This document shows positions 1 to 21,175 of a DNA stretch of 21,347 nt, one piece after another; the first letter of the stretch is position 1, and each line of letters starts with the position of its first letter. The DNA is from a virus, in IMG/VR virus record IMGVR_UViG_3300047457_000946, positions 1 to 21,347 of that record; one strand, 5' to 3'. A program made the position numbers and the translations under genes. Below the pieces are notes generated by a model, which saw only the letters and a list, made by a program, of their open reading frames with translations, did no database searches and was not told the DNA's origin.

Positions 1-746
1 GTGCAGGCTACATCTTCACTGGCGACAATGACGCCAACATTATGCACAACTCCGCGACGATCAATCTGAACCTCCTGGATCAGCTAGTATCGCAGCATGC
101 CAGACTTGGCACTCCATATCCGACTGTGTTCTATTCATCGTCAGCTTGCATCTATCCAGACTTCAAGCAAACAGATTCCCAGAATCCAGACTGCCGCGAG
201 TCCTCTGCATATCCTGCCAACCCTGATTCCGAATATGGTTGGGAGAAGCTTTTCTCGGAGCGGCTGTATGCTGCATATGCGCGCAATCATGACGTGCCAG
301 TCCGCATTGCCCGATTCCATAACATCTATGGTCCCATGGGTACATGGCATGGCGGTAAAGAGAAAGCGCCCGCTGCCATCTGCCGCAAGGTTGCTGCCGC
401 GACAAACGCAATCGAAATCTGGGGCAATGGATCACAAACACGATCCTTCCTGTTCATCACAGATTGCATTGACGCTGTACAGCTCATGATGAAGTCTGAT
501 TTCCAAGGACCAGTGAATATTGGTTCAGAAGAAATGGTGACCATCAACCAGCTTGTGTCGATTGCTGAAAGCATTGCAGGTAAGAGTCTCAAGAGAGTTT
601 ACATTCCTGGTCCCATCGGAGTAGCAGGACGAAACTCACACAATGATCTGATTGAGGCTAAGCTTGGATGGAAGCCCAAGTACTCCCTCGTGGAGGGAAT
701 GGCGCTGACGTATACATGGATCGCAAGGCAGGTGCACGATGAATAA
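1..746 (+). CDS. GDP-mannose 3,5-epimerase, 5' end outside window
   Basis: The reading frame is open from base 3 to the TAA at 744-746, so the N-terminal Rossmann glycine motif is cut off by the window edge. The product is an extended short-chain dehydrogenase/reductase. Visible motifs are SSSACIYP (catalytic Ser region), YGWEK (catalytic Tyr and Lys), RFHNIYGP followed by GTWHGGKEKAPAA, GNGSQTRSF, and PVNIGSEEMV. These match plant-type GDP-mannose 3,5-epimerase closely, much better than GDP-fucose synthase or UDP-glucose epimerases. The known reaction is NAD-dependent conversion of GDP-D-mannose to GDP-L-galactose (with some GDP-L-gulose) in the cytoplasm. The end overlaps the next gene, a GT10 transferase, by 8 bases, which suggests the two act in sequence. 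An internal ATG at 42 is not the true start, because the frame continues upstream with sensible sequence. Confidence 0.88.
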   Translation, partial: AGYIFTGDNDANIMHNSATINLNLLDQLVSQHARLGTPYPTVFYSSSACIYPDFKQTDSQNPDCRESSAYPANPDSEYGWEKLFSERLYAAYARNHDVPVRIARFHNIYGPMGTWHGGKEKAPAAICRKVAAATNAIEIWGNGSQTRSFLFITDCIDAVQLMMKSDFQGPVNIGSEEMVTINQLVSIAESIAGKSLKRVYIPGPIGVAGRNSHNDLIEAKLGWKPKYSLVEGMALTYTWIARQVHDE

Positions 747-1635
747 GCTGAAACTAGGATTCACTGACACGTTTGGTGCCATCGAAAACTTCTTCACCAA
801 GGCTCTTGCGGAGCGGTATGTCATCGTTCGTGATGACGTGAATCCGAACTATCTGATCTTTGGTGACAGAAACTTTGGCACCAACAACATGTCATTCGAC
901 GAAACGAAGACCATCAAGATATTCTACACAGGCGAGAATGAGCGTCCGTTTAACTATAAGTGCCACTACTCGATTTCATTCGATCACTCTGAATTCGATG
1001 GACGCAACTATCGCCTGCCTCTGTATGTGATCTATGATCACGACAACCACTTCCGTGACGTGCCAAACACTTCGAACGTGGACAGGAAGCCAGAAGACCT
1101 CCTTGCAATCCAGGGCACCCAAACGAAAGGATTCTGTTCGTTTGTCGTCAAGAACGGTGGATGCGAGAAGCGCAATGACTGGTTCCAGTTGCTGAATAAG
1201 TACAAGCCAGTTGCATCTGGTGGTCCTCTGTTCAATAACATTGGTGGTGTGCTGCCACGTGGAGAAGATTCGGTGAAGGCGAAGCTGAACTTCCTCAACT
1301 CCTATCGGTTCAATCTGTGCTTTGAGAATGCCTCATATCCAGGATATGCAACCGAGAAGCTGTATGAAGCCCTGTGTGCCAAGACCATTCCCATCTATTG
1401 GGGATCACCGACGATTGAGGTTGACTTCAATCCCAAGGCATTCCTCAACTGGCACGACTATCAAGACGACAAGGCATTCTTCGAAGCGATCAAGGAGATT
1501 GACGAAAATCCCGACATGTATGAGGAAATGTACCTGGCTCCAATGTTCCCCGACTATCAGAGAGTCAACAAGTTCTTTGACAGGGATAGATTCCTCACCT
1601 GGTTCGATAAGAATGTATACAGGGGAGAGTGGTGA
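739..1635 (+). CDS. GT10 fucosyltransferase-family glycosyltransferase
   Basis: This 298-residue protein has the hallmarks of the alpha-1,3/1,4-fucosyltransferase family (GT10). They are YTGEN near residues 63-67, GFCSFVVKNGGC near 131-142, SGGPLFNNIGG near 160-170, and the donor-site block FENASYPGYATEKLYE near 195-210, followed by IPIYWGSPTIEVDFN near 217-231. Family members transfer L-fucose from GDP-L-fucose to N-acetylglucosamine or glucose residues of surface glycans. The length is close to that of compact bacterial members, and there is no membrane anchor. It overlaps the GDP-mannose 3,5-epimerase gene, so the donor may be GDP-L-galactose, which is 6-hydroxy-GDP-L-fucose. That is an inference from context. 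The ATG at 739 sits inside the end of the previous gene, and the stop forms a GTGA overlap with the next small gene. Confidence 0.9.
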   Translation: MNKLKLGFTDTFGAIENFFTKALAERYVIVRDDVNPNYLIFGDRNFGTNNMSFDETKTIKIFYTGENERPFNYKCHYSISFDHSEFDGRNYRLPLYVIYDHDNHFRDVPNTSNVDRKPEDLLAIQGTQTKGFCSFVVKNGGCEKRNDWFQLLNKYKPVASGGPLFNNIGGVLPRGEDSVKAKLNFLNSYRFNLCFENASYPGYATEKLYEALCAKTIPIYWGSPTIEVDFNPKAFLNWHDYQDDKAFFEAIKEIDENPDMYEEMYLAPMFPDYQRVNKFFDRDRFLTWFDKNVYRGEW

Positions 1636-2409: not shown

Positions 2410-3150
2410 ATGAAAAGCCGCGCACTGATCATCACTCCGACTGGTTGTCCGATGTTCTTTGATCCGCTGTATGATGCCCAGAAGCACTGGCGCTTTGCAC
2501 TGCCGGAGCGAACCTATGACACCATCGTTGTCGGATTCAATGATCACGTGCCAGAGCTTGAGTCATATGACCTGTTCATCAAGTACCCGATTCGGTACAA
2601 GTGGAAACAGATGCCCGAGCTTATCAAGCACCATGTGCCATTCTGGACAAACTATGACTACATTGGAGTATGGGATGACGATTACTGCACAGACATTCCA
2701 TCAGTGAATCGAGCACTCCAACTTGCCCGCAGATATGACTTCCCGTTCTTTCAACAGTCACTAACCTCTTGGACGGTGTACCCATGTCTTGAACAGAAGA
2801 AGGAACACACATTCACTCGAACCAACTTCACCGAAATGGGTGTATGCTTCTATCGCCAAGATATCTTCCGCAAGGTGCTCTGGCTTCTGGAGGCATACAA
2901 GTACAGGGAGTCGGAATGGGGGATTGACAAGATCATGTGTGACTATCTTGGTCTGCCAGCAGCCGTTGTCCATGAAACATCAATCAAGCACATGCGCCGT
3001 GAAAGCTGGTACGACAAGACCAATGCATTTGCTGAAATGGCATATTTGACGAATGAGTGGTTCCCCGAATACATGCGGACCGTTCGTGGCGAGACGGGCT
3101 ATATATTCAGAGACGTGCAACAAACACTGGCGACATTCAAAGAGGAATGA
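2410..3150 (+). CDS. putative glycosyltransferase, DUF707-like
   Basis: A strong Shine-Dalgarno AAGGGAGG (2394-2401) lies eight bases ahead of the ATG. The 246-residue soluble protein has the layout of DUF707-type GT-A-like proteins. It has a beta-strand start (ALIITPTGCP), a YIGVWDDDY block near residues 84-92 where the acidic run would bind metal and nucleotide sugar, FPFFQQSLTSW near 111-121, EMGVCFYR near 142-149, and EWGID near 169-173. Family members are thought to be glycosyltransferases, but substrates are poorly known. Lying between a GT10 enzyme and RmlB supports transfer of a sugar made in this cassette. The DUF707 assignment is from motif resemblance only. Confidence 0.65.
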   Translation: MKSRALIITPTGCPMFFDPLYDAQKHWRFALPERTYDTIVVGFNDHVPELESYDLFIKYPIRYKWKQMPELIKHHVPFWTNYDYIGVWDDDYCTDIPSVNRALQLARRYDFPFFQQSLTSWTVYPCLEQKKEHTFTRTNFTEMGVCFYRQDIFRKVLWLLEAYKYRESEWGIDKIMCDYLGLPAAVVHETSIKHMRRESWYDKTNAFAEMAYLTNEWFPEYMRTVRGETGYIFRDVQQTLATFKEE

Positions 3151-4196
3151 TGATGACAAAGAGAGTATTGATCACGGGCGGCGCAGGATTCATCGGTCAC
3201 CATATCATCGACCTGTTCCTACGAGTCACCGACTGGGAAATCGTATCACTTGACAGATTGGACTATTCGGGCAACCTGAATAGGCTCCATGATGTTGTAT
3301 CGAAGCATCCAAAGCCAGAACAGAAGCGCGTTTCTGTTGTGTGGCATGACCTGAAGGCAGAAATACGCGACTACACTGCAAACAAGATCGGCAAGGTGGA
3401 CACGATTCTCCATCTGGCAGCATCATCGCATGTTGATCGATCAATCTCGAATCCCATGGAGTTTCTCCTAGACAACACGCTTGGCACTGTCAATCTCCTA
3501 GACTATGCTCGAAAGCTAGATGGACTGGAGAGACTGATCTATTTCTCGACCGATGAAATCTTCGGTGCAGCACCTCCTGGTGTGCTGTATAAGGAATATG
3601 ATCGTTACAACTCTACCAATCCATATTCAGCGTCCAAGGCTGCAGCCGAAGAGTTCTGTGTTGCCTATGAAAACACCTACAGGCTGCCGATCTTTGTGAC
3701 ACACACGATGAACGTCTTCGGCGAGCGCCAGCATCCTGAGAAGTTCATCCCCATGAGCATCCGCAAGATTCGCGACTCGGAGAAGATTTACATCCACTCT
3801 GATCCATCAAGAACCAAAGCGGGTAGCAGGTTCTACATTTCGGCAAAGGACGTTGCGGAGTCTATGTACTTCCTTCTTCACTTGACTCCGGCCCAGCACC
3901 AGATGATCTATGATGAAATGGAAGCGTTGGGTGTTCGTTGTCCGAAGTTCAATATTGTCGGCAAGGAAGAAATCGACAACCTGTCGATGGTCAAGATTCT
4001 TGCAAATGCACAGAATAAGGACCCAGTGTATGAAATGGTGGATTTCCACACTTCACGCCCTGGTCATGATCTTCGCTATTCACTTGACGGTGGATTTATG
4101 AAACGTCTAGGTTGGGAACCACGTGTTGATTTGAAGACCCGCCTGACACAACTGACCGAATGGTCACTCAAAAACAAGGACTGGATCGAACTATGA
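3147..4196 (+). CDS. rmlB: dTDP-glucose 4,6-dehydratase (RmlB type)
   Basis: An extended short-chain dehydrogenase that converts dTDP-D-glucose to dTDP-4-keto-6-deoxy-D-glucose using bound NAD. Visible features are GGAGFIG at residues 11-17 (NAD binding), LAASSHVDRSI near 90-100, STDEIFG at 134-140 with the Asp-Glu pair typical of the dehydratase, YSASK at 160-164 (Tyr/Lys), and the C-terminal RPGHDLRYSLD block. At 349 residues it is the usual length. Three ATG codons in a row (3147, 3150, 3153) overlap the previous stop; the first gives an ATGA junction. An upstream in-frame ATG at 3057 lies inside the previous gene and is rejected. No RmlC or RmlD partner is seen in the window, but a C-methyltransferase and an O-methyltransferase follow directly. 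Confidence 0.9.
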   Translation: MMMTKRVLITGGAGFIGHHIIDLFLRVTDWEIVSLDRLDYSGNLNRLHDVVSKHPKPEQKRVSVVWHDLKAEIRDYTANKIGKVDTILHLAASSHVDRSISNPMEFLLDNTLGTVNLLDYARKLDGLERLIYFSTDEIFGAAPPGVLYKEYDRYNSTNPYSASKAAAEEFCVAYENTYRLPIFVTHTMNVFGERQHPEKFIPMSIRKIRDSEKIYIHSDPSRTKAGSRFYISAKDVAESMYFLLHLTPAQHQMIYDEMEALGVRCPKFNIVGKEEIDNLSMVKILANAQNKDPVYEMVDFHTSRPGHDLRYSLDGGFMKRLGWEPRVDLKTRLTQLTEWSLKNKDWIEL

Positions 4197-4870
4197 CAGT
4201 AATGATGCCAACACTTTTCCAGTTTTTCAATGAGTCAGAGCATTCTTCTGACAAGTGGGATGGATACTTCGGAGTGTATGAAAAGCACCTCTGCAAGTTC
4301 CCACTTGTCGGTCATCCTCTGACCGTCGTGGAAGTTGGAGTGCAACAAGGTGGTTCACTCGACATGTGGGCGAAGTACTTCCCCAAGGAGTCGAAGATCA
4401 TCGGAATCGACAACAACCCAGAATGTGCCAAGCTGAAATACTCCAACCCAGATATCAAGGTCGTCATTGGCGATCAAGGCGATCCTGCATTCTGGGACAA
4501 GTTCCTTGCAGATCATCCCGATCCGATTGACGTGTTCATTGACGATGGTGGTCATTTCATGGATCAACAGATTACGACATTCGAGAAAGTGTTTCCTCGA
4601 ATCGCACAGGGCGGAGTCTATATCTGCGAGGATTGCCACACCAGCTACATGCCATACAATGGTGGTGGTCTCCATCGCAAGGGTACCTGGATCGAATATG
4701 CCAAGTCCTATGCAGACACTCTCCATAAGGATTGGCACCAGGAGCTCGACACAGAGCAGGAGCGTAGGAATCGAATCGGTGAAGACTTGACTTCTGTCGC
4801 GTTCTATGATAGTATGGTCGTATTCGAAAAGAACGGCAAGAGGAGGCTAAAGCGTGTTTTCCCAAAATAA
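4193..4870 (+). CDS. sugar O-methyltransferase, MycE/CalO6-like
   Basis: A class I SAM-dependent methyltransferase of 225 residues. The SAM-binding motif I is VVEVGVQQGGS near residues 45-55, followed by KIIGIDNNP. IDVFIDDGGH near 112-121 and MDQQ supply the acidic and His residues used for metal binding in macrocin/mycinamicin-type sugar O-methyltransferases. YICEDCHTSY and YNGGG follow, also as in that family. The early SDKWDGYFGVYE segment matches the family's usual lead-in. Known relatives methylate hydroxyls of deoxysugars attached to natural products. The start at 4193 overlaps the rmlB stop (ATGA). An upstream in-frame ATG at 4160 is rejected. Confidence 0.82.
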   Translation: MTVMMPTLFQFFNESEHSSDKWDGYFGVYEKHLCKFPLVGHPLTVVEVGVQQGGSLDMWAKYFPKESKIIGIDNNPECAKLKYSNPDIKVVIGDQGDPAFWDKFLADHPDPIDVFIDDGGHFMDQQITTFEKVFPRIAQGGVYICEDCHTSYMPYNGGGLHRKGTWIEYAKSYADTLHKDWHQELDTEQERRNRIGEDLTSVAFYDSMVVFEKNGKRRLKRVFPK

Positions 4871-6110
4871 TGATATCGCTGTACTAGACGAGTGCCTTGC
4901 ATGTGGCTCGAATTCATTGGTCTCAGTCTTGGACCTGAAAACCCAGCCCCTTGCCAACTCCTACAAGGACTTCAAGAGTGAGAACCAATCGAGCTTTCCT
5001 CTTGCTATCAATCGATGCACCACATGCCATCATGTGCAGCTAACGCATGCCGTGAATCCTGATCTAATGTTCAAGAACTACATGTATGTGTCAGGGACTT
5101 CGGCAACCATGAATGATCATTTCAAGTGGTTCGCAAACTACACCTATGAATATTTCACAGCACTGTCGGCTCTGAAACCAACTCGCGTTCTCGACATTGG
5201 ATGCAATGACGGTTCGCAGTTGAATCACTTCAAGAACCTGGGCATGGTTACTGTTGGTGTGGACCCAGCGCTGAATCTCCATGCCATGTCGGGCAAAAAG
5301 CACATGGTCTATCCAACCTATTTTGACATGAAGTTTGTGGAGGATCATCCAGGCGTGTATGACATTCTGGTTGCACAGAATGTGTTTGCTCACAACTACA
5401 ATCCCAAGGCATTCCTGACTGCGGCACGGAATCTCATGTCGCATGACTCGCTTCTGTTTATTCAGACTTCGCAGGCTGACATGATTCTGAATAGTGAGTT
5501 CGATACGATCTACCATGAGCATGTGTCATTCTTCAATACCAGATCAATGCGAATGCTTTGCGAACGTGCTGGTCTGTATCTCATGGATTCGATCAAGTGC
5601 CCACTCCATGGCAACTCCTACATCTTTGTCGTGACCAAGAACAAGTTGGTGGCACGACCTCACAACGTCTCGAATATCGAGGAGATGGAGAAGACACGTG
5701 GACTGTACTCGCCCGTCAAATATACCGAGTATGCACTCCGCTCGAATGCAATCGCTCAGGAGCTCAAAAGCACGCTGATGGAGTACAAGAAAGAGGGATG
5801 GAAGGTCATCGGTTATGGTGCAGCCGCCAAGGGTATGACGCTGCTGAACTACGCTGGACTGGATGATACCGTCTTTGATTACATCGTTGACGACAACGTC
5901 CTTAAGCAGGGAAAGTTTACTCCTGGTACCAATATTGAAATCGTTGGATCAGCTAGAGTGACACTTGAGGACCCAAAGACTTCGCTTGTATTCGTTCCGC
6001 TTGCGTGGAACTTCTATGGCGAGATCGTGTCGAAAATCAAGCGCCTCCGTCCTGATAGTACCGACGATTACGTTCAGTACTTCCCAGAGGTTATGGTGAA
6101 AATAGCATGA
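4854..6110 (+). CDS. nucleotide-sugar C-methyltransferase, NovU/TylC3-like
   Basis: This 418-residue protein has the three-part layout of dTDP-ketosugar C-methyltransferases. An N-terminal zinc site is formed by Cys14/Cys17 (CLAC) and Cys55/Cys58 (CTTC). The SAM domain carries VLDIGCNDGSQ near residues 112-122. The catalytic YHEHVSFF segment is at 220-227. A C-terminal Rossmann-like domain carries GYGAAAKG at 320-327. Family enzymes add a methyl branch at C3 or C5 of dTDP-4-keto deoxysugars, and RmlB upstream makes the basic 4-keto precursor. The start is GTG at 4854, set by a perfect AGGAGG at 4841-4846 seven bases upstream. It overlaps the O-methyltransferase by 17 bases. All key residues appear intact. 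Confidence 0.88.
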   Translation: MFSQNNDIAVLDECLACGSNSLVSVLDLKTQPLANSYKDFKSENQSSFPLAINRCTTCHHVQLTHAVNPDLMFKNYMYVSGTSATMNDHFKWFANYTYEYFTALSALKPTRVLDIGCNDGSQLNHFKNLGMVTVGVDPALNLHAMSGKKHMVYPTYFDMKFVEDHPGVYDILVAQNVFAHNYNPKAFLTAARNLMSHDSLLFIQTSQADMILNSEFDTIYHEHVSFFNTRSMRMLCERAGLYLMDSIKCPLHGNSYIFVVTKNKLVARPHNVSNIEEMEKTRGLYSPVKYTEYALRSNAIAQELKSTLMEYKKEGWKVIGYGAAAKGMTLLNYAGLDDTVFDYIVDDNVLKQGKFTPGTNIEIVGSARVTLEDPKTSLVFVPLAWNFYGEIVSKIKRLRPDSTDDYVQYFPEVMVKIA

Positions 6111-6919
6111 GAAAGAGCCTCTACTATCACATCTACCTTCGATGGGATGTTGATCCTTGGCTGGACATGTTTTTCGAGCAGATGAAGTGTATCGAGGACG
6201 CTGGGCTCCTGGACGAATTCGATGCCTTCAATTTTATCGCTCTGAACAGGCAAGAGAACACGCTAGCCAAGAAGCTCCTGACGGATGCAGTCAGATCGTA
6301 TGTTCCAGAGTCCAAGTTCCACATCACCTTCCCGGAGAATCCATTCTTCACGGATGAAGAAATGATGGCGAACTTGGACAGTCCGAAGCTGGTCTCCGAA
6401 AACTTCACCATGCGCAAGATATACAATCATGCGATGGCGGCACCAGAGCCTCAACTGATCTGCTATATACACCAGAAGGGCATCACCAGGACAATCAAAT
6501 ACAACTCCATCGACGTGGAGTCAGTCAAGCGTTACTACTATTGGAGACAATACCTCAACTGGGGCGTGATAGAAAACTGGAAGAGGTGTGTCGAAGTAAT
6601 CGAAAAGGAAAGCTGCGATGTTGCTGGTATCAATTTCAACTTTGATCCTCTTCCTCACTACAGCGGCAATTTTTGGTGGGCGTCAACTTCGCACATCAAA
6701 CTCCTGCCTGATCCGAAAACCGTAACCTGGTTCCACGAACTACAGAAAAACTCCACCAATCACTGGCTCAGAAATGTGGCTTCCGATAGATACAGGGACG
6801 AGCAATGGTTGTGTGCCCGAGAAGGAACTAGAGTGTTCAACGTGGCTGATCTTGACCAATCAAGAAACCCTGCTGGACAACTCCTCAAGCGTAAAGACTA
6901 TGGAGAAGTGAACCGATGA
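6107..6919 (+). CDS. putative glycosyltransferase with HYSGNFWWA motif
   Basis: A 270-residue soluble protein starting at an ATGA overlap with the C-methyltransferase. It contains YIHQKG near residues 120-125, a YYYWRQYL stretch near 143-150, GINF near 174-177, and HYSGNFWWAS near 184-193. Similar HTKG and HYSGNFWWA motifs occur in glycosyltransferase-like proteins from surface-polysaccharide clusters and large viruses (RgpF-like type). I recognise the pattern but cannot name the donor or acceptor. As the last gene of the sugar cassette, it could transfer the methylated deoxysugar. It ends in an ATGA overlap with a small unknown gene, so transcription runs on towards the polymerase gene. Confidence 0.6.
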   Translation: MRKSLYYHIYLRWDVDPWLDMFFEQMKCIEDAGLLDEFDAFNFIALNRQENTLAKKLLTDAVRSYVPESKFHITFPENPFFTDEEMMANLDSPKLVSENFTMRKIYNHAMAAPEPQLICYIHQKGITRTIKYNSIDVESVKRYYYWRQYLNWGVIENWKRCVEVIEKESCDVAGINFNFDPLPHYSGNFWWASTSHIKLLPDPKTVTWFHELQKNSTNHWLRNVASDRYRDEQWLCAREGTRVFNVADLDQSRNPAGQLLKRKDYGEVNR

Positions 6920-10567: not shown

Positions 10568-10583
10568 CTAAAAAGGAAAACGA

Positions 10584-10733
10584 ATGGAACCAATTATCCT
10601 GTTTTTGGCGTGCGTAGCTGCAATGGCGTTCTTTGCAGCGTTCAATAAAGAACTACTGGCAGCCACGTTTGCGTACATGTCAGTTATGATTGCCCTGTGG
10701 TACGTGCTTACACACTTCATCCTGAAACTCTGA
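10584..10733 (+). CDS. 49-residue two-helix membrane protein
   Basis: An ATG at 10584 follows AAAAGGA (10571-10577) at a suitable distance. The product has two hydrophobic stretches, about residues 3-20 and 27-47, separated by a short NKELL turn, with little else. It lies 16 bases after the tRNA CCA and shares the tRNA's promoter. No family is recognised. It could be a holin-like, superinfection or host-membrane protein, but nothing in the sequence decides between these. Confidence 0.55.
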   Translation: MEPIILFLACVAAMAFFAAFNKELLAATFAYMSVMIALWYVLTHFILKL

Positions 10734-10743
10734 GGAACTGACA

Positions 10744-11208
10744 ATGGAATTCGACACGAAAGATATCCGTAAGACCCCTGAGGACTCGGCAACTGAGGCT
10801 GGCATCATCAAGGCAATGATGATCTTTGCAGTCGCCATTCTGACAATATTTGCGCTTGCAGGTTGCTCTGTTGGTGCGCGAGTCGAGAAGGGTGTTATCA
10901 CTGAGCCCATCCACCAGTCAAGCGTACAGACTCACCAACACGAAAGCTTCCTCCGTCTTGTTCTGTTTGTTCGGCATCATCATGGATCGAAGCCAACGGA
11001 GAACCTGGTGTTGACTGCACAGACTCATGTCTATAATGCTGGGTTCACAAGGCAGTGCCGCGGCGGTGAATGCTTCTTTGTCTATCGTGACAAGGAGGTT
11101 GTTGTCGGTCCCGAGTTCGTTCAAATCCGTCGAGTTGGTTCGCGTGACTATGTGAAGTTCTACAACATGGAAGTTGCGATGAGGGTGATCTATGACCTCC
11201 ATCACTGA
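10744..11208 (+). CDS. 154-residue lipoprotein-like membrane protein
   Basis: Starts at 10744 after the leader GAGGAACTGACA. Residues 1-23 are polar, then a hydrophobic stretch (about 24-40) ends in LAGC with Cys41, a lipobox-like site for signal peptidase II. The long polar stretch before the hydrophobic segment is unusual for a signal peptide. The part after Cys41 is basic and His-rich at first (RHHHG), then has a CRGGEC pair and a beta-rich end. It may be a lipoprotein facing the periplasm, or simply a single-pass membrane protein. No family is recognised. It overlaps the next gene by 17 bases. Confidence 0.62.
   Translation: MEFDTKDIRKTPEDSATEAGIIKAMMIFAVAILTIFALAGCSVGARVEKGVITEPIHQSSVQTHQHESFLRLVLFVRHHHGSKPTENLVLTAQTHVYNAGFTRQCRGGECFFVYRDKEVVVGPEFVQIRRVGSRDYVKFYNMEVAMRVIYDLHH
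11011..11037 (+). promoter_or_regulatory. possible sigma70 promoter for the 11192 gene
   Basis: TTGACT (11011-11016) and TATAAT (11032-11037) are 15 bases apart, shorter than ideal. It lies inside the lipoprotein-like gene, about 155 bases before the next start, in the same placement as the stronger internal promoters of this window. Confidence 0.35.
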
Positions 11209-11527
11209 CAAGAGTCTCCATGAAGTTCTGAGTGAAATGTCAGACGTTCAAGAGAAAGCCACCAAGCAGTACGATCAAGATGCCGACAAGTTCTGGAACG
11301 GCATGTCCAAAGAAGATCAGTTACTAGCGTTCTATTCAGTCATCAAGCGTATGCATCAAGCCGAGGTGGTCGATCAAAGAAGCTACCGCGGTGCTCTGTA
11401 TGACGTGTATGGTTTTGGTCCAAATGCGTACGGCGTAGGCATGGAATGTGGCTACATGACCCTACATAACATGATCTGCGAACATCTGGCCATAGAAATG
11501 TGGTTACAGAATCCGGTGACAAAGTAA
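11192..11527 (+). CDS. 111-residue conserved-looking phage protein
   Basis: Begins within the end of the previous gene and is followed by a strong terminator. The N-terminal half is helical and acidic. The C-terminal half has SYRGALYDVYGFGPNAYG, a GMECGYM block and HNMICEHLAI. I recall such GM-CGY-LHN patterns in hypothetical proteins of T4-like phages, but no activity is known to me. There is no signal peptide or membrane segment. Confidence 0.65.
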   Translation: MTSITDKSLHEVLSEMSDVQEKATKQYDQDADKFWNGMSKEDQLLAFYSVIKRMHQAEVVDQRSYRGALYDVYGFGPNAYGVGMECGYMTLHNMICEHLAIEMWLQNPVTK

Positions 11528-12547: not shown

Positions 12548-13601
12548 CCTGATTAGCAAAATCAAAAAGAATTCGACAATCAAGGCAACACAAGTTCTCA
12601 CTGAACAGACATTGCTTCACGATAAGGATTCTATCACCACTCCGGTGCCTATGATCAACGTCGCCCTTTCTGGGCGCGTTGACGGCGGACTGATTCCAGG
12701 GCTAACTGTCCTGGCAGGTCCGTCGAAGCATTTCAAATCCCTGTTCGCACTAGTCATAGGTGCTGCATTCTTGAAGAAGTATCCCGAGGGCATCCTTCTT
12801 TTCTATGACTCGGAGTTCGGAACACCAACCAAGTATTTCGAGAACCTTGAAATGGACATGGACAGAATCGTCCACACTCCAATCACGAACATCGAAGAAT
12901 TGAAGCATGACCTGGTTAGCCAGCTCGAAGGATTCAACCGCACAGATAAGGTGTGCATCATCGTTGACTCCGTAGGCAATCTAGCTTCCAAGAAGGAAGT
13001 CGAAGATGCCAAAGACGCCAAGTCTGTCGCCGACATGACTCGCGCCAAAGCAATGAAGTCCTTGTTCCGCATCGTGACACCGTACTTGACGGTCAAGGAC
13101 ATTCCACTCATTGCAATCAACCACACATACAAGACACAAGAAATGTTCTCCAAGGACGTTGTCTCTGGAGGCACTGGCATCTATTATTCTGCTGGTGATA
13201 TCTGGATCATTGGACGCCAGCAAGACAAAGACGAGAAGACCAAGAGAGTCGAGGGCTATCACTTCATCATCAACATTGAGAAGTCCCGTCTTGTCCGTGA
13301 GAAGATGAAGATTCCAATCTCGGTATCGTATGAACACGGCATTAATCGCTGGTCTGGTCTCCTAGAGAATGCAATCGAGGCTGGGATCATCGTCAAGCCG
13401 ATCGCTGGTCGCTATGAGCGTCCTACTGGCAAGTACTCTGGCAAGAGATACACAGAGGACGAGATTCTGACATTCGATGCCCTATGGCAGGACATTCTCG
13501 CGACAACTGATCTTCCGGAATACATCCGCAATAAATACTCGGGCTCTGGCTCTGGAAGTCTGATTCAAGAGGGAGACTCCGACGATGCAGATACCGACTG
13601 A
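12537..13601 (+). CDS. uvsX: UvsX RecA-like recombinase
   Basis: A 354-residue homologue of T4 UvsX, the strand-exchange ATPase used in recombination-dependent replication and repair. Walker A is AGPSKHFKS at about 60-68 and Walker B is VCIIVDS at about 139-145. The segments YDSEFG, NLASKKEVEDA, SDMTRAK-like ADMTRAKAMKSLFRIVTPY (split here as family landmarks) and AINHTYKTQEMFSKDV follow T4 UvsX almost residue for residue. The C-terminus is shorter than in T4 (391 residues) but ends in the typical acidic tail (GDSDDADTD). The ATG follows AGAGGAG and overlaps the membrane-protein gene by 11 bases. Its own promoter appears to lie upstream at 12270. Confidence 0.96.
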   Translation: MVSDLISKIKKNSTIKATQVLTEQTLLHDKDSITTPVPMINVALSGRVDGGLIPGLTVLAGPSKHFKSLFALVIGAAFLKKYPEGILLFYDSEFGTPTKYFENLEMDMDRIVHTPITNIEELKHDLVSQLEGFNRTDKVCIIVDSVGNLASKKEVEDAKDAKSVADMTRAKAMKSLFRIVTPYLTVKDIPLIAINHTYKTQEMFSKDVVSGGTGIYYSAGDIWIIGRQQDKDEKTKRVEGYHFIINIEKSRLVREKMKIPISVSYEHGINRWSGLLENAIEAGIIVKPIAGRYERPTGKYSGKRYTEDEILTFDALWQDILATTDLPEYIRNKYSGSGSGSLIQEGDSDDADTD

Positions 13602-14205
13602 TGATGAATATTATTCACTGTATTTCGAATGCAAGGAATACATTGACAAGAACTGCATTGTACGGGACACCAGAATGCCAGGCAAGGCGCCTGGCACCTG
13701 GTACTCCTGGATATTCTACATGAGACGTGGTCTCCTTGACAGAGCGTTTATGTCCGCAATCTCCAAGCTGTTCATCTATCGAATCAACCAAGAGATTGGA
13801 CACTTCGATTTCCAAATAGCAGGACTCGAAACAGGAGCAACTCCACTCGTGGTTGCTCTTCCTATCCACCTCCATCGGCACAAGATTGACGTGCATTCTT
13901 TTTCGATCCGAAAGGAAAAAAAGAAGTACGGACTACTGAACTGGATCGAAGGAGTTCCAAACGACAAGCCTGTTCTATTGGTGGATGATCTGTGCAATTC
14001 GTCCATGTCTATGCGTCAAGCGTACAATGTTCTGAAAGAGGAAGGGATACCTACACTGCCCTGGGCTTTCAGCGTAGTCAACAAGTACAATCACGGAGTC
14101 CACGATCCAATACGAGGAGTAACCGACATGTATCTCCCTCATGATATGCGAGTCGTTACCCTTTTCAGGATGGATGACTTCAACCTGAAAAACCCATCAC
14201 ACTGA
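13585..14205 (+). CDS. orotate phosphoribosyltransferase-like protein
   Basis: A 206-residue protein with a type I phosphoribosyltransferase core. GLETGATPL (residues 80-88), then SIRKEKKKYG (107-116), match the Arg-Lys-rich loop of orotate phosphoribosyltransferase. IEGV (121-124) and LLVDDLCNSSMS (131-142) form the PRPP-binding loop, with the acidic pair Asp134-Asp135. The PRPP loop has NSSMS where cellular enzymes have TTGGS. Known orotate phosphoribosyltransferases join orotate to PRPP in pyrimidine synthesis. Here the base acceptor is unknown. The start lies inside the uvsX end (17-base overlap), so it is translated with the recombination and helicase genes. About 80 extra N-terminal residues precede the core. 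Confidence 0.8.
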   Translation: MQIPTDDEYYSLYFECKEYIDKNCIVRDTRMPGKAPGTWYSWIFYMRRGLLDRAFMSAISKLFIYRINQEIGHFDFQIAGLETGATPLVVALPIHLHRHKIDVHSFSIRKEKKKYGLLNWIEGVPNDKPVLLVDDLCNSSMSMRQAYNVLKEEGIPTLPWAFSVVNKYNHGVHDPIRGVTDMYLPHDMRVVTLFRMDDFNLKNPSH

Positions 14206-20080: not shown

Positions 20081-21175
20081 ATGACAGAGAAGATTGTACG
20101 CACCGCGACCAAGGCTTCTGGTGGAGTTACGCCGGAGGAAATGATCAAGCTCAAAGAGCATGCGGAAATGTGGAAGAAGCGTATTCTTCGCACCAAGTCC
20201 GTGGCCGAAGATTTTCCCAAGCTTCGCGATGCGATCTTTGGCATCTATGAGGCTGCCGACAAGCCGCGTCCAATCGTGATCCTGGCTCCGTCGCCAATCG
20301 CCATGGCATATGCATATGGTGCGGCGGCTGCGATCTGGCATGCTCGCTCAAAGGGCGAGAAGATTGATATCAATTTGGGCAATGATCATGTGTCGGACAT
20401 CATCCGCCTTGCCATCCAGGAAACCAAGAATCCTATCTCGGCTGCCGTTCGAATGGCTAAGCCGTCGGACACGGTTCTGGCTGATGCTCGGGCGACATGC
20501 TTCAATGCTGCCGGGCAGTTTGGCATCGATTGTGCCAAGCGCTGGAACAACGTGGTGCAGTGTGGTGCATATTCTGGTTTCGACGATGCATATTTCACTG
20601 CCTTCCGTGACGTGATCGGGCTCAAGCTGCCGATCTTTGAGAAGTACAAGCACTGGGAGCAGGCGGCAATCTATGGAACTCTCCGTGTCATGCACGAAAA
20701 GTTCTGCATCGTGTCGGATTTCCCTGAAGTTTTCAAGATGGATGAGGAAAATCGCTCGCACAATCAGACTGGCCCATCACATCGTTGGGCTGATGGTTGG
20801 GAATTGTATCACTGGCATGGTGTTCGCATTCCGAACGAGTGGATCAAGACTCCTGGTGCCCTAACGGCCAAGGTAGCCATCACTTGGAAGAATATCGAAC
20901 AGCGTCGTGCTGCATGCGAACTCTTGGGTTGGGCTAAAATTCTTGAGGAATTGAATGCCAAGGTTATCGACACCGATGCCGACCCAGAAATCGGTGAACT
21001 TCTGGAGGTTGATATTCCAGACATTGGAAAGGAAAAGTTTCTTCGGGCTCTTTGTGGCACTGGTCGAACCTTTGCAATCCCGGTTCCTCCGAACATGAAG
21101 ACTGCGATGGAGGCTAACGCCTGGACGTATGGTCTCAATCTCGATGACTTCAAGGTTCCTGAAGTTCGTACATAA
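20081..21175 (+). CDS. DUF6745-like protein
   Basis: A 364-residue soluble protein. From about residue 205 it has FCIVSDFPEVFKMDE, then NQTGPSHRWADGWELYHWHG and VRIPNEWI, a block I recognise as the core of DUF6745 proteins (the family pattern is a short repeat of D-P-x-G-P and DG-x-x-x-Y-x-x-HG). Its end has a charged region (EQRRAACELLGWAKIL), also typical. The N-terminal 200 residues include a PSPIAMAYAYGAAAAIW stretch. The function of the family is unknown to me. The gene is a separate unit with its own promoter and dyad. Its codons look richer in G and C than those of the small genes before it. Confidence 0.8.
   Translation: MTEKIVRTATKASGGVTPEEMIKLKEHAEMWKKRILRTKSVAEDFPKLRDAIFGIYEAADKPRPIVILAPSPIAMAYAYGAAAAIWHARSKGEKIDINLGNDHVSDIIRLAIQETKNPISAAVRMAKPSDTVLADARATCFNAAGQFGIDCAKRWNNVVQCGAYSGFDDAYFTAFRDVIGLKLPIFEKYKHWEQAAIYGTLRVMHEKFCIVSDFPEVFKMDEENRSHNQTGPSHRWADGWELYHWHGVRIPNEWIKTPGALTAKVAITWKNIEQRRAACELLGWAKILEELNAKVIDTDADPEIGELLEVDIPDIGKEKFLRALCGTGRTFAIPVPPNMKTAMEANAWTYGLNLDDFKVPEVRT

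Follow-up and report, generated by a model that had tools for sequence, protein, structure and literature searches.

A conserved gene block of uncultured T4-like phages predicted to build a glycan with a C- and O-methylated 6-deoxyhexose

Why should a phage carry enzymes for a methyl-branched deoxysugar, and to what would it attach the sugar? The question is raised by the virus record IMGVR_UViG_3300047457_000946 of IMG/VR, analysed here over its whole length of 21,347 bases (the window), which carries the T4-like genes gp43, uvsX and gp41. A preliminary description had noted an RmlB dehydratase, a MycE-like sugar O-methyltransferase, a C-methyltransferase and a putative glycosyltransferase overlapping end to end at 3147-6919. 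All four are present, the limits 3147 and 6919 are exactly those of open reading frames (ORFs) and the overlaps amount to 4 to 17 bases; they are, however, the end of a longer block, the upstream part of which (a truncated epimerase, a GT10 gene and X2410) had been missed. The reading favoured here, to which we give a probability of roughly 0.48, is that the soluble enzymes of this conserved operon of uncultured T4-like phages make two sugars, a 6-deoxyhexose methylated on carbon and oxygen and one of L-galactose type, and attach them stepwise to a virion protein. The block consists of seven genes:

3-746, plus strand: GDP-mannose 3,5-epimerase (GME), 5' end cut by the window edge (phmmer, 2c59, 250.9 bits)
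739-1635, plus strand: GT10 alpha-1,3-fucosyltransferase-like glycosyltransferase (PF00852, PF18025, 2nzw)
2410-3150, plus strand: X2410, predicted new glycosyltransferase family of GT-A fold (AlphaFold2 model, Foldseek)
3147-4196, plus strand: RmlB-like nucleoside diphosphate (NDP)-glucose 4,6-dehydratase of a divergent phage/SAR11 clade (2hun, TIGR01181, motifs)
4193-4870, plus strand: MycE-like sugar O-methyltransferase, catalytic domain only, 225 aa (PF13578, 3ssm)
4854-6110, plus strand, GTG start: MtmC/TylC3-like NDP-sugar 3-C-methyltransferase, possibly also a 4-ketoreductase (PF08421/PF13489/PF08484, 4rv9)
6107-6919, plus strand: Y6107, probable divergent GT-A glycosyltransferase (AlphaFold2 model, BFVD matches)

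Computation shows which genes are present, that their catalytic motifs are intact, that their order is conserved, that they are under purifying selection and that they are akin to SAR11 genes. The dehydratase matches PF16363 with 166 bits and has 2hun as best solved structure (162.7 bits); against TIGR01181 it reaches 228.6 bits, which is under the equivalog cut-off of 365.1 bits, and it is therefore filed only as RmlB-like. The NAD-binding GxxGxxG (GGAGFIG at residue 11), the catalytic Thr-Asp-Glu (STDE at 134, within STDEIFG) and YxxxK (YSASK at 160) are in place, as are SHVDRSI and RPGHDLRY. The O-methyltransferase, the start of which was set at the ATG at 4193 by homology with the relative L002 (a longer ORF opens at 4160), scores 31.6 bits with PF13578 and 66.8 bits (E 1.6e-17) with MycE 3ssm; its IDDGGH at 116 and ICED at 144 align with the metal and base residues of 3ssm, the metal-binding Asp residues and catalytic His of the MycE/TylE type (DDGxH, ED) being thus retained. 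As it lacks the N-terminal domain of MycE, the match beginning at residue 234 of the 419-residue chain, it is filed as MycE-like. Its closest matches in cultured phages include mycobacteriophage methyltransferases adjoining glycosyltransferases.

The C-methyltransferase unites in one chain a zinc domain (PF08421, 61.1 bits), an S-adenosylmethionine domain (PF13489, 67.4 bits) and a C-terminal domain (PF08484, 115.4 bits). Its best solved match is 4rv9 (207.6 bits, E 2.8e-60), which we take to be MtmC, with TcaB9/KijD1 at 154 bits. Residues C14, C17, C55, C58, Y76, Y78, H180, Y220, E222 and H223 are invariant in 25 phage homologues and comprise, with roles that we presume from TcaB9, four zinc cysteines, the catalytic Tyr and His and the Tyr-x-Glu-His motif. 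The likeness to MtmC covers the three-domain architecture over the full length, the zinc cysteines and the catalytic Tyr/His/Glu/His; MtmC, however, belongs to an antibiotic pathway and acts on a 2,6-dideoxy substrate, whereas no 2,3-dehydratase is seen in the window block (a search of relatives for PF03559, 0 of 21, was run without a positive control and does not count as evidence). For the dehydratase and both methyltransferases the proposed identities are thus borne out by family matches, and the catalytic residues, absence of which had been named as a ground for refutation, are kept. C-methyltransferases of this kind matched 506 viral-contig stretches, and a literature search on phage C-methyltransferases found nothing on the topic.

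Of the other arm of the block, the GME aligns with the GDP-mannose-3',5'-epimerase 2c59 over 243 aa and keeps the motifs SSACIYP, YGWEK and GGKEKAPAAICRK, so that close similarity to the plant enzyme is combined with the catalytic Cys, Tyr and Lys in a copy lacking its 5' end; in L002 the uncut homologue is 346 aa long. The GT10 gene scores 63.9 bits with PF00852 (cut-off 23.9) and 62.8 bits with PF18025, matches the Helicobacter pylori FucT 2nzw with E 2e-36 and possesses the alpha-1,3-FucT motif, with FYTGENE and GYATEK...TIPIYWGSP present.

The two remaining proteins have no family name. X2410 matches neither Pfam nor PHROG and has no match among 50,697 phage records, while homologues of 52-77% identity occur at 24 viral loci, with the motif DDDYCTDI invariant. 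Its AlphaFold2 model, built from an alignment of phage homologues (pLDDT 92.8), is placed by Foldseek with many GT-A enzymes (E 4e-6 to 5e-5, probability 1.00), among them WrtF, RmlT and SpsA (E 4e-6 to 2e-5, TM-score about 0.5). Y6107, with the motifs YIHxKG and HYSGNFWW, has no Pfam, PHROG or NCBIfam family, and its profile retrieves nothing from PDB sequences. Its model, likewise from phage homologues (pLDDT 90.3), resembles GT-A folds of the PDB weakly (TM-score about 0.4) and viral proteins of BFVD better, the best being M1IF74 (638 aa) and M1HWA2 (445 aa) with E 2.7e-13 and TM-score 0.64, and it also matches annotated Klosneuvirus and Harvfovirus glycosyltransferases and an S-SRM01 protein. 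The earlier designation of this gene as a putative glycosyltransferase consequently holds at the level of structure models, which make it a probable divergent GT-A enzyme; a Pfam match is not found.

To place the block among related phages, loci were fetched for four of the genes, contigs sharing sequence were put in one group and profiles were used to assign the ORFs. In 28 such groups, the window included, GME, GT10, X2410, RmlB, C-methyltransferase and Y6107 follow one another in unchanged order; the MycE-like O-methyltransferase is present in 18 of the 28, and in L009, L012, L028 and L184 another PF13578 methyltransferase (MT24b) lies in its stead between RmlB and C-methyltransferase. Where the contig extends that far, gp43 follows downstream (21 of 28 groups), and relatives have GT2, FkbM methyltransferase and hsp20 genes upstream. 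As just two small genes separate hsp20 from gp43 in S-SM2 and S-BM3, gene order assigns the block a fixed site within the replication module. L002, with proteins 77-88% identical, carries the entire set, with the complete epimerase and a GT2 gene further upstream; between it and the window dN is 0.11-0.18 with dS saturated, and since synonymous change lies far above amino-acid change, the comparison indicates genes in use and under purifying selection. The order of six genes in 28 groups together with these values places the arrangement beyond chance. The single parts of the block are ordinary, their combination is new, and the whole is a case of phage-encoded glycan synthesis.

For the pathway itself, substrates, step order and ketoreduction are inferred, as are acceptor and host. 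The RmlB-like enzyme would convert NDP-glucose (dTDP or UDP) to a 4-keto-6-deoxy sugar, to which the C-methyltransferase would add a methyl group at C-3, perhaps itself reducing the 4-keto group, and the O-methyltransferase would methylate a hydroxyl before or after transfer; a sugar methylated on both carbon and oxygen, as proposed earlier, is accordingly what this enzyme set predicts. GME would turn host GDP-mannose into GDP-L-galactose/L-gulose, the GT10 enzyme would use and transfer this GDP-L-sugar, and X2410, Y6107 and, in relatives, the upstream GT2 would link the sugars. The preliminary description had seen no RmlC, and none was found in 40 relatives. The RmlD model likewise gave nothing over cut-off in 40 relatives, its sub-threshold matches being mostly RmlB genes and other short-chain dehydrogenases/reductases (SDRs), and the full-block contigs searched lack the RmlA-type NTP-transferase PF00483. 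Such absences come from incomplete contigs and are weak evidence throughout. RmlC is dispensable for a D-configured 3-C-methyl sugar; C-3 methylation needs just the 4-keto-6-deoxy intermediate. The earlier view that a ketoreductase has to come from the host or from genes further upstream is not forced: RmlB-like enzyme and C-methyltransferase may suffice, the latter doubling as 4-ketoreductase, because its best structural match is the presumed MtmC named above and because a TylCIII-type C-methyltransferase of Streptomyces argillaceus is reported with 4-ketoreductase activity (PMC3539893).

It may well be, at somewhat less than an even chance, that the branched sugar is built on UDP- or GDP-linked rather than dTDP-linked precursors, which would make the name RmlB misleading, leave the rest of the model intact and be compatible with any acceptor rather than an alternative to one. 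The TIGR01181 score under cut-off and the absence of PF00483 point this way, as do the four SAR11 genomes carrying the set, in which no RmlA exceeds the cut-off, and the appearance among the structure matches of 6vlo, the mimivirus enzyme R141, which takes UDP-glucose and dTDP-glucose equally well (PMC9614988). On the other hand, RPGHDxRY, STDE and SHVDRS are motifs of the RmlB kind, and GDP/CDP-sugar dehydratases score much lower against the gene.

The nearest cellular relatives bear on the acceptor and on the origin of the block. When genomes were scanned once with the C-methyltransferase profile, single-cell contigs of SAR11 (Pelagibacteraceae) were among the best, and four SAR11 contigs (L189, L192, L194 and L205) show the tandem of RmlB variant and C-methyltransferase, overlapping and in the same order as in the phages, with a MycE-like O-methyltransferase nearby in the first three. 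Reading of the ORFs of L189 and L192 puts the set between lepA and gyrB (recognised by eye from their translations) with glycosyltransferase genes, namely GT9/GT2 genes beside it in L192 and one such gene in L189. In contrast to the phage block, this island is chromosomal and its available flanks are without GME, GT10, X2410 and Y6107. In trees, phage and SAR11 C-methyltransferases and RmlBs form one clade apart from Streptomyces and Thermomonospora, and SAR11 branches inside the phage clade. This nesting is suggested rather than established, as constraining the phages together gave approximately unbiased (AU) test p values of 0.044 (RmlB) and 0.075 (C-methyltransferase), a marginal rejection and none, and transfer may have run either way. 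The window polymerase is 47-48.5% identical to that of the nearest cyanophages and 41.7% to that of Pelagibacter phage HTVC008M, by which a SAR11 host is not proven; photosystem genes, sought as a cyanophage mark, were not found (0 of 25), and a cyanobacterial host is therefore not supported.

As to the acceptor, the preliminary description had offered the virion, host lipopolysaccharide (LPS) or modified DNA; of the three, DNA is now unlikely. The hydrophobicity of the seven window proteins nowhere exceeds 1.52 over 19 residues, and the marks of gtr-type serotype conversion were not found, the initiating transferase PF02397 being absent from 29 records and the GtrA flippase PF04138 from 21. 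With no membrane segment and no lipid-carrier gene found, the acceptor would most likely be soluble and cytoplasmic, the glycan being built on it stepwise, and by analogy virion proteins are the best-precedented candidates. In chloroviruses, soluble virus-encoded enzymes are proven to rhamnosylate and methylate the capsid glycan (PMC9614988), and cluster O mycobacteriophages use a methyltransferase/glycosyltransferase set on capsid and tail tube (PMC11600133). Several points weigh against a virion glycan of this composition. No structural gene lies within the block, which is known from its genes alone; the SAR11 set beside GT9/GT2 genes points to a surface glycan; the clustering of NDP-sugar and transferase genes would fit LPS modification too; ketoreduction by the C-methyltransferase is argued from analogy; and M1IF74 is equated with a chlorovirus A064R protein from its length and style of accession, no name being given.

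The strong rival, though the less probable of the two, is that the sugars are put on host LPS or another surface glycan during infection, to block adsorption of competing phages or keep progeny off debris. Besides the SAR11 tandem with its adjoining glycosyltransferase genes, the interpretation of pelagimyophage glycosyltransferases as O-chain modifiers (PMC7029224) speaks for it, and it is opposed by the soluble appearance of the seven proteins, the missing PF02397 and GtrA genes and a SAR11 host that is not established. Decoration of phage DNA, as with glucose in T4, is very improbable. The block does lie directly upstream of gp43, uvsX and gp41, but PF00303, the dCMP-hydroxymethylase/thymidylate synthase family expected for glucosylation of the T4 type, is absent from the full-block contigs searched, which include ones of 110 and 141 kb and may be incomplete, and was matched only in G021 and G028, both without the full block; several transferases plus methyltransferases moreover exceed the needs of a base modification. 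An antibiotic-type pathway recently acquired from an actinomycete, for which MtmC, TcaB9 and MycE speak as best solved matches of single enzymes, is most improbable, as it is rejected by both trees and opposed by a block GC content like that of the rest of the window and by the absence of RmlC from 40 relatives and of RmlA-type genes from the full-block contigs searched, and the likeness to antibiotic rather than phage metabolism drawn earlier gives way to the 506 viral stretches, the 28 syntenic T4-like groups and the SAR11 kinship.

Several known systems share parts of the proposed one. In cyanophage S-SM2 an RmlB relative from the same clade stands together with GME and a GT10-like gene, and in S-SSM7 and P-TIM68 GME is accompanied by several transferases; these clusters, however, lie downstream of nrdAB or elsewhere, not between hsp20 and gp43, and no C-methyltransferase, X2410 or Y6107 of the window type was found in them. 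Chlorovirus PBCV-1 (A064R, A061L) encodes mostly soluble glycosyltransferases and sugar O-methyltransferases, and its A064R is 638 aa long, as is the viral protein that the Y6107 model resembles; A064R has three domains, serves the capsid glycan as rhamnosyltransferase and methyltransferase, and has as its second domain an inverting transferase that needs no cation and belongs to a new family (PMC9614988). PBCV-1 is nevertheless a eukaryotic algal virus with an N-linked capsid glycan, no C-methyltransferase is named for it and the likeness is by fold, at about 17% identity. In mycobacteriophage capsid and tail glycosylation an O-methyltransferase adjoins glycosyltransferases, but RmlB, GME and C-methyltransferase are not mentioned (PMC11600133), and the window O-methyltransferase is 25-30% identical to the mycobacteriophage genes found. 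Outside antibiotic synthesis, a TylC3-type C-methyltransferase (CBU_0691) is proposed for virenose in Coxiella; this is a bacterial LPS sugar for which the authors favour GDP-linked sugars (PMC3539893). Synechococcus phage DSL-LC02 (L272) has GMD, a C-methyltransferase and GDP-fucose synthase together with many glycosyltransferases, which may represent another way for a phage to arrive at a C-methyl sugar, in this case GDP-linked according to the annotation. A sugar cluster of HTVC008M (L274, 124-133 kb) holds a Nol-like carbamoyltransferase, UDP-glucose dehydrogenase, a glycosyltransferase and a methyltransferase, and L273 holds a second Nol-like carbamoyltransferase at 1.3-2.8 kb.

Around the block, about 770 bases with small ORFs (1636-2409) separate GT10 from X2410 in the window, a gap that is shorter in L002 and absent in many relatives, where the genes are adjacent. 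A GalE-like second SDR of about 325 aa directly 3' of Y6107 (L032:12142-13128, L037:11969-12940, L046:12061-13035 and L034) possibly adds a further sugar-modifying step. A CotH-kinase-like family (PF08757, weak, below cut-off) occurs near the RmlB gene in L068:8216-9064 and about 29 other locus groups, and an upstream family of 344 aa (c0) and one of 190 aa (c4) are found in relatives without a family name. In L002 (10114-12696), L004 and L026 gp43 is in two pieces; the L002 insert holds an HNH-type ORF (10578-11426) and looks like a homing endonuclease insertion. A near-identity DNA search of phages gave a sole match of 185 bp, in the epimerase. Two other genes of the window are:

13585-14205, between uvsX and gp41: phosphoribosyltransferase-like gene (TIGR00336, 49 bits, below cut-off), the profile of which matched one ORF among all first-set loci
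20081-21175, at the end of the window: DUF6745 protein (PF20530, E 8e-21)

Sugar genes of phages are usually regarded as scattered, variable extras, whereas the six-gene core described here is fixed in order and is kept across phages with DNA polymerases about 40% different; the glycan must therefore matter to infection. X2410 and Y6107 offer two new glycosyltransferase families for assay. An unlikely but attractive extension is that this widespread T4-like lineage works with soluble enzymes in the manner of chloroviruses to cover its virions with a glycan of several sugars, among them a 6-deoxyhexose, methylated on carbon and oxygen, of the kind made by SAR11, and that it exchanges the genes with SAR11 chromosomes, the coat serving as disguise or receptor mimicry. 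Antibiotics and a few LPSs are the known sources of C-methyl-branched sugars; here the pathway is fixed in phages and has its nearest cellular relatives on SAR11 chromosomes, and a surface sugar shared between viruses and some of the most abundant bacteria of the ocean becomes testable.

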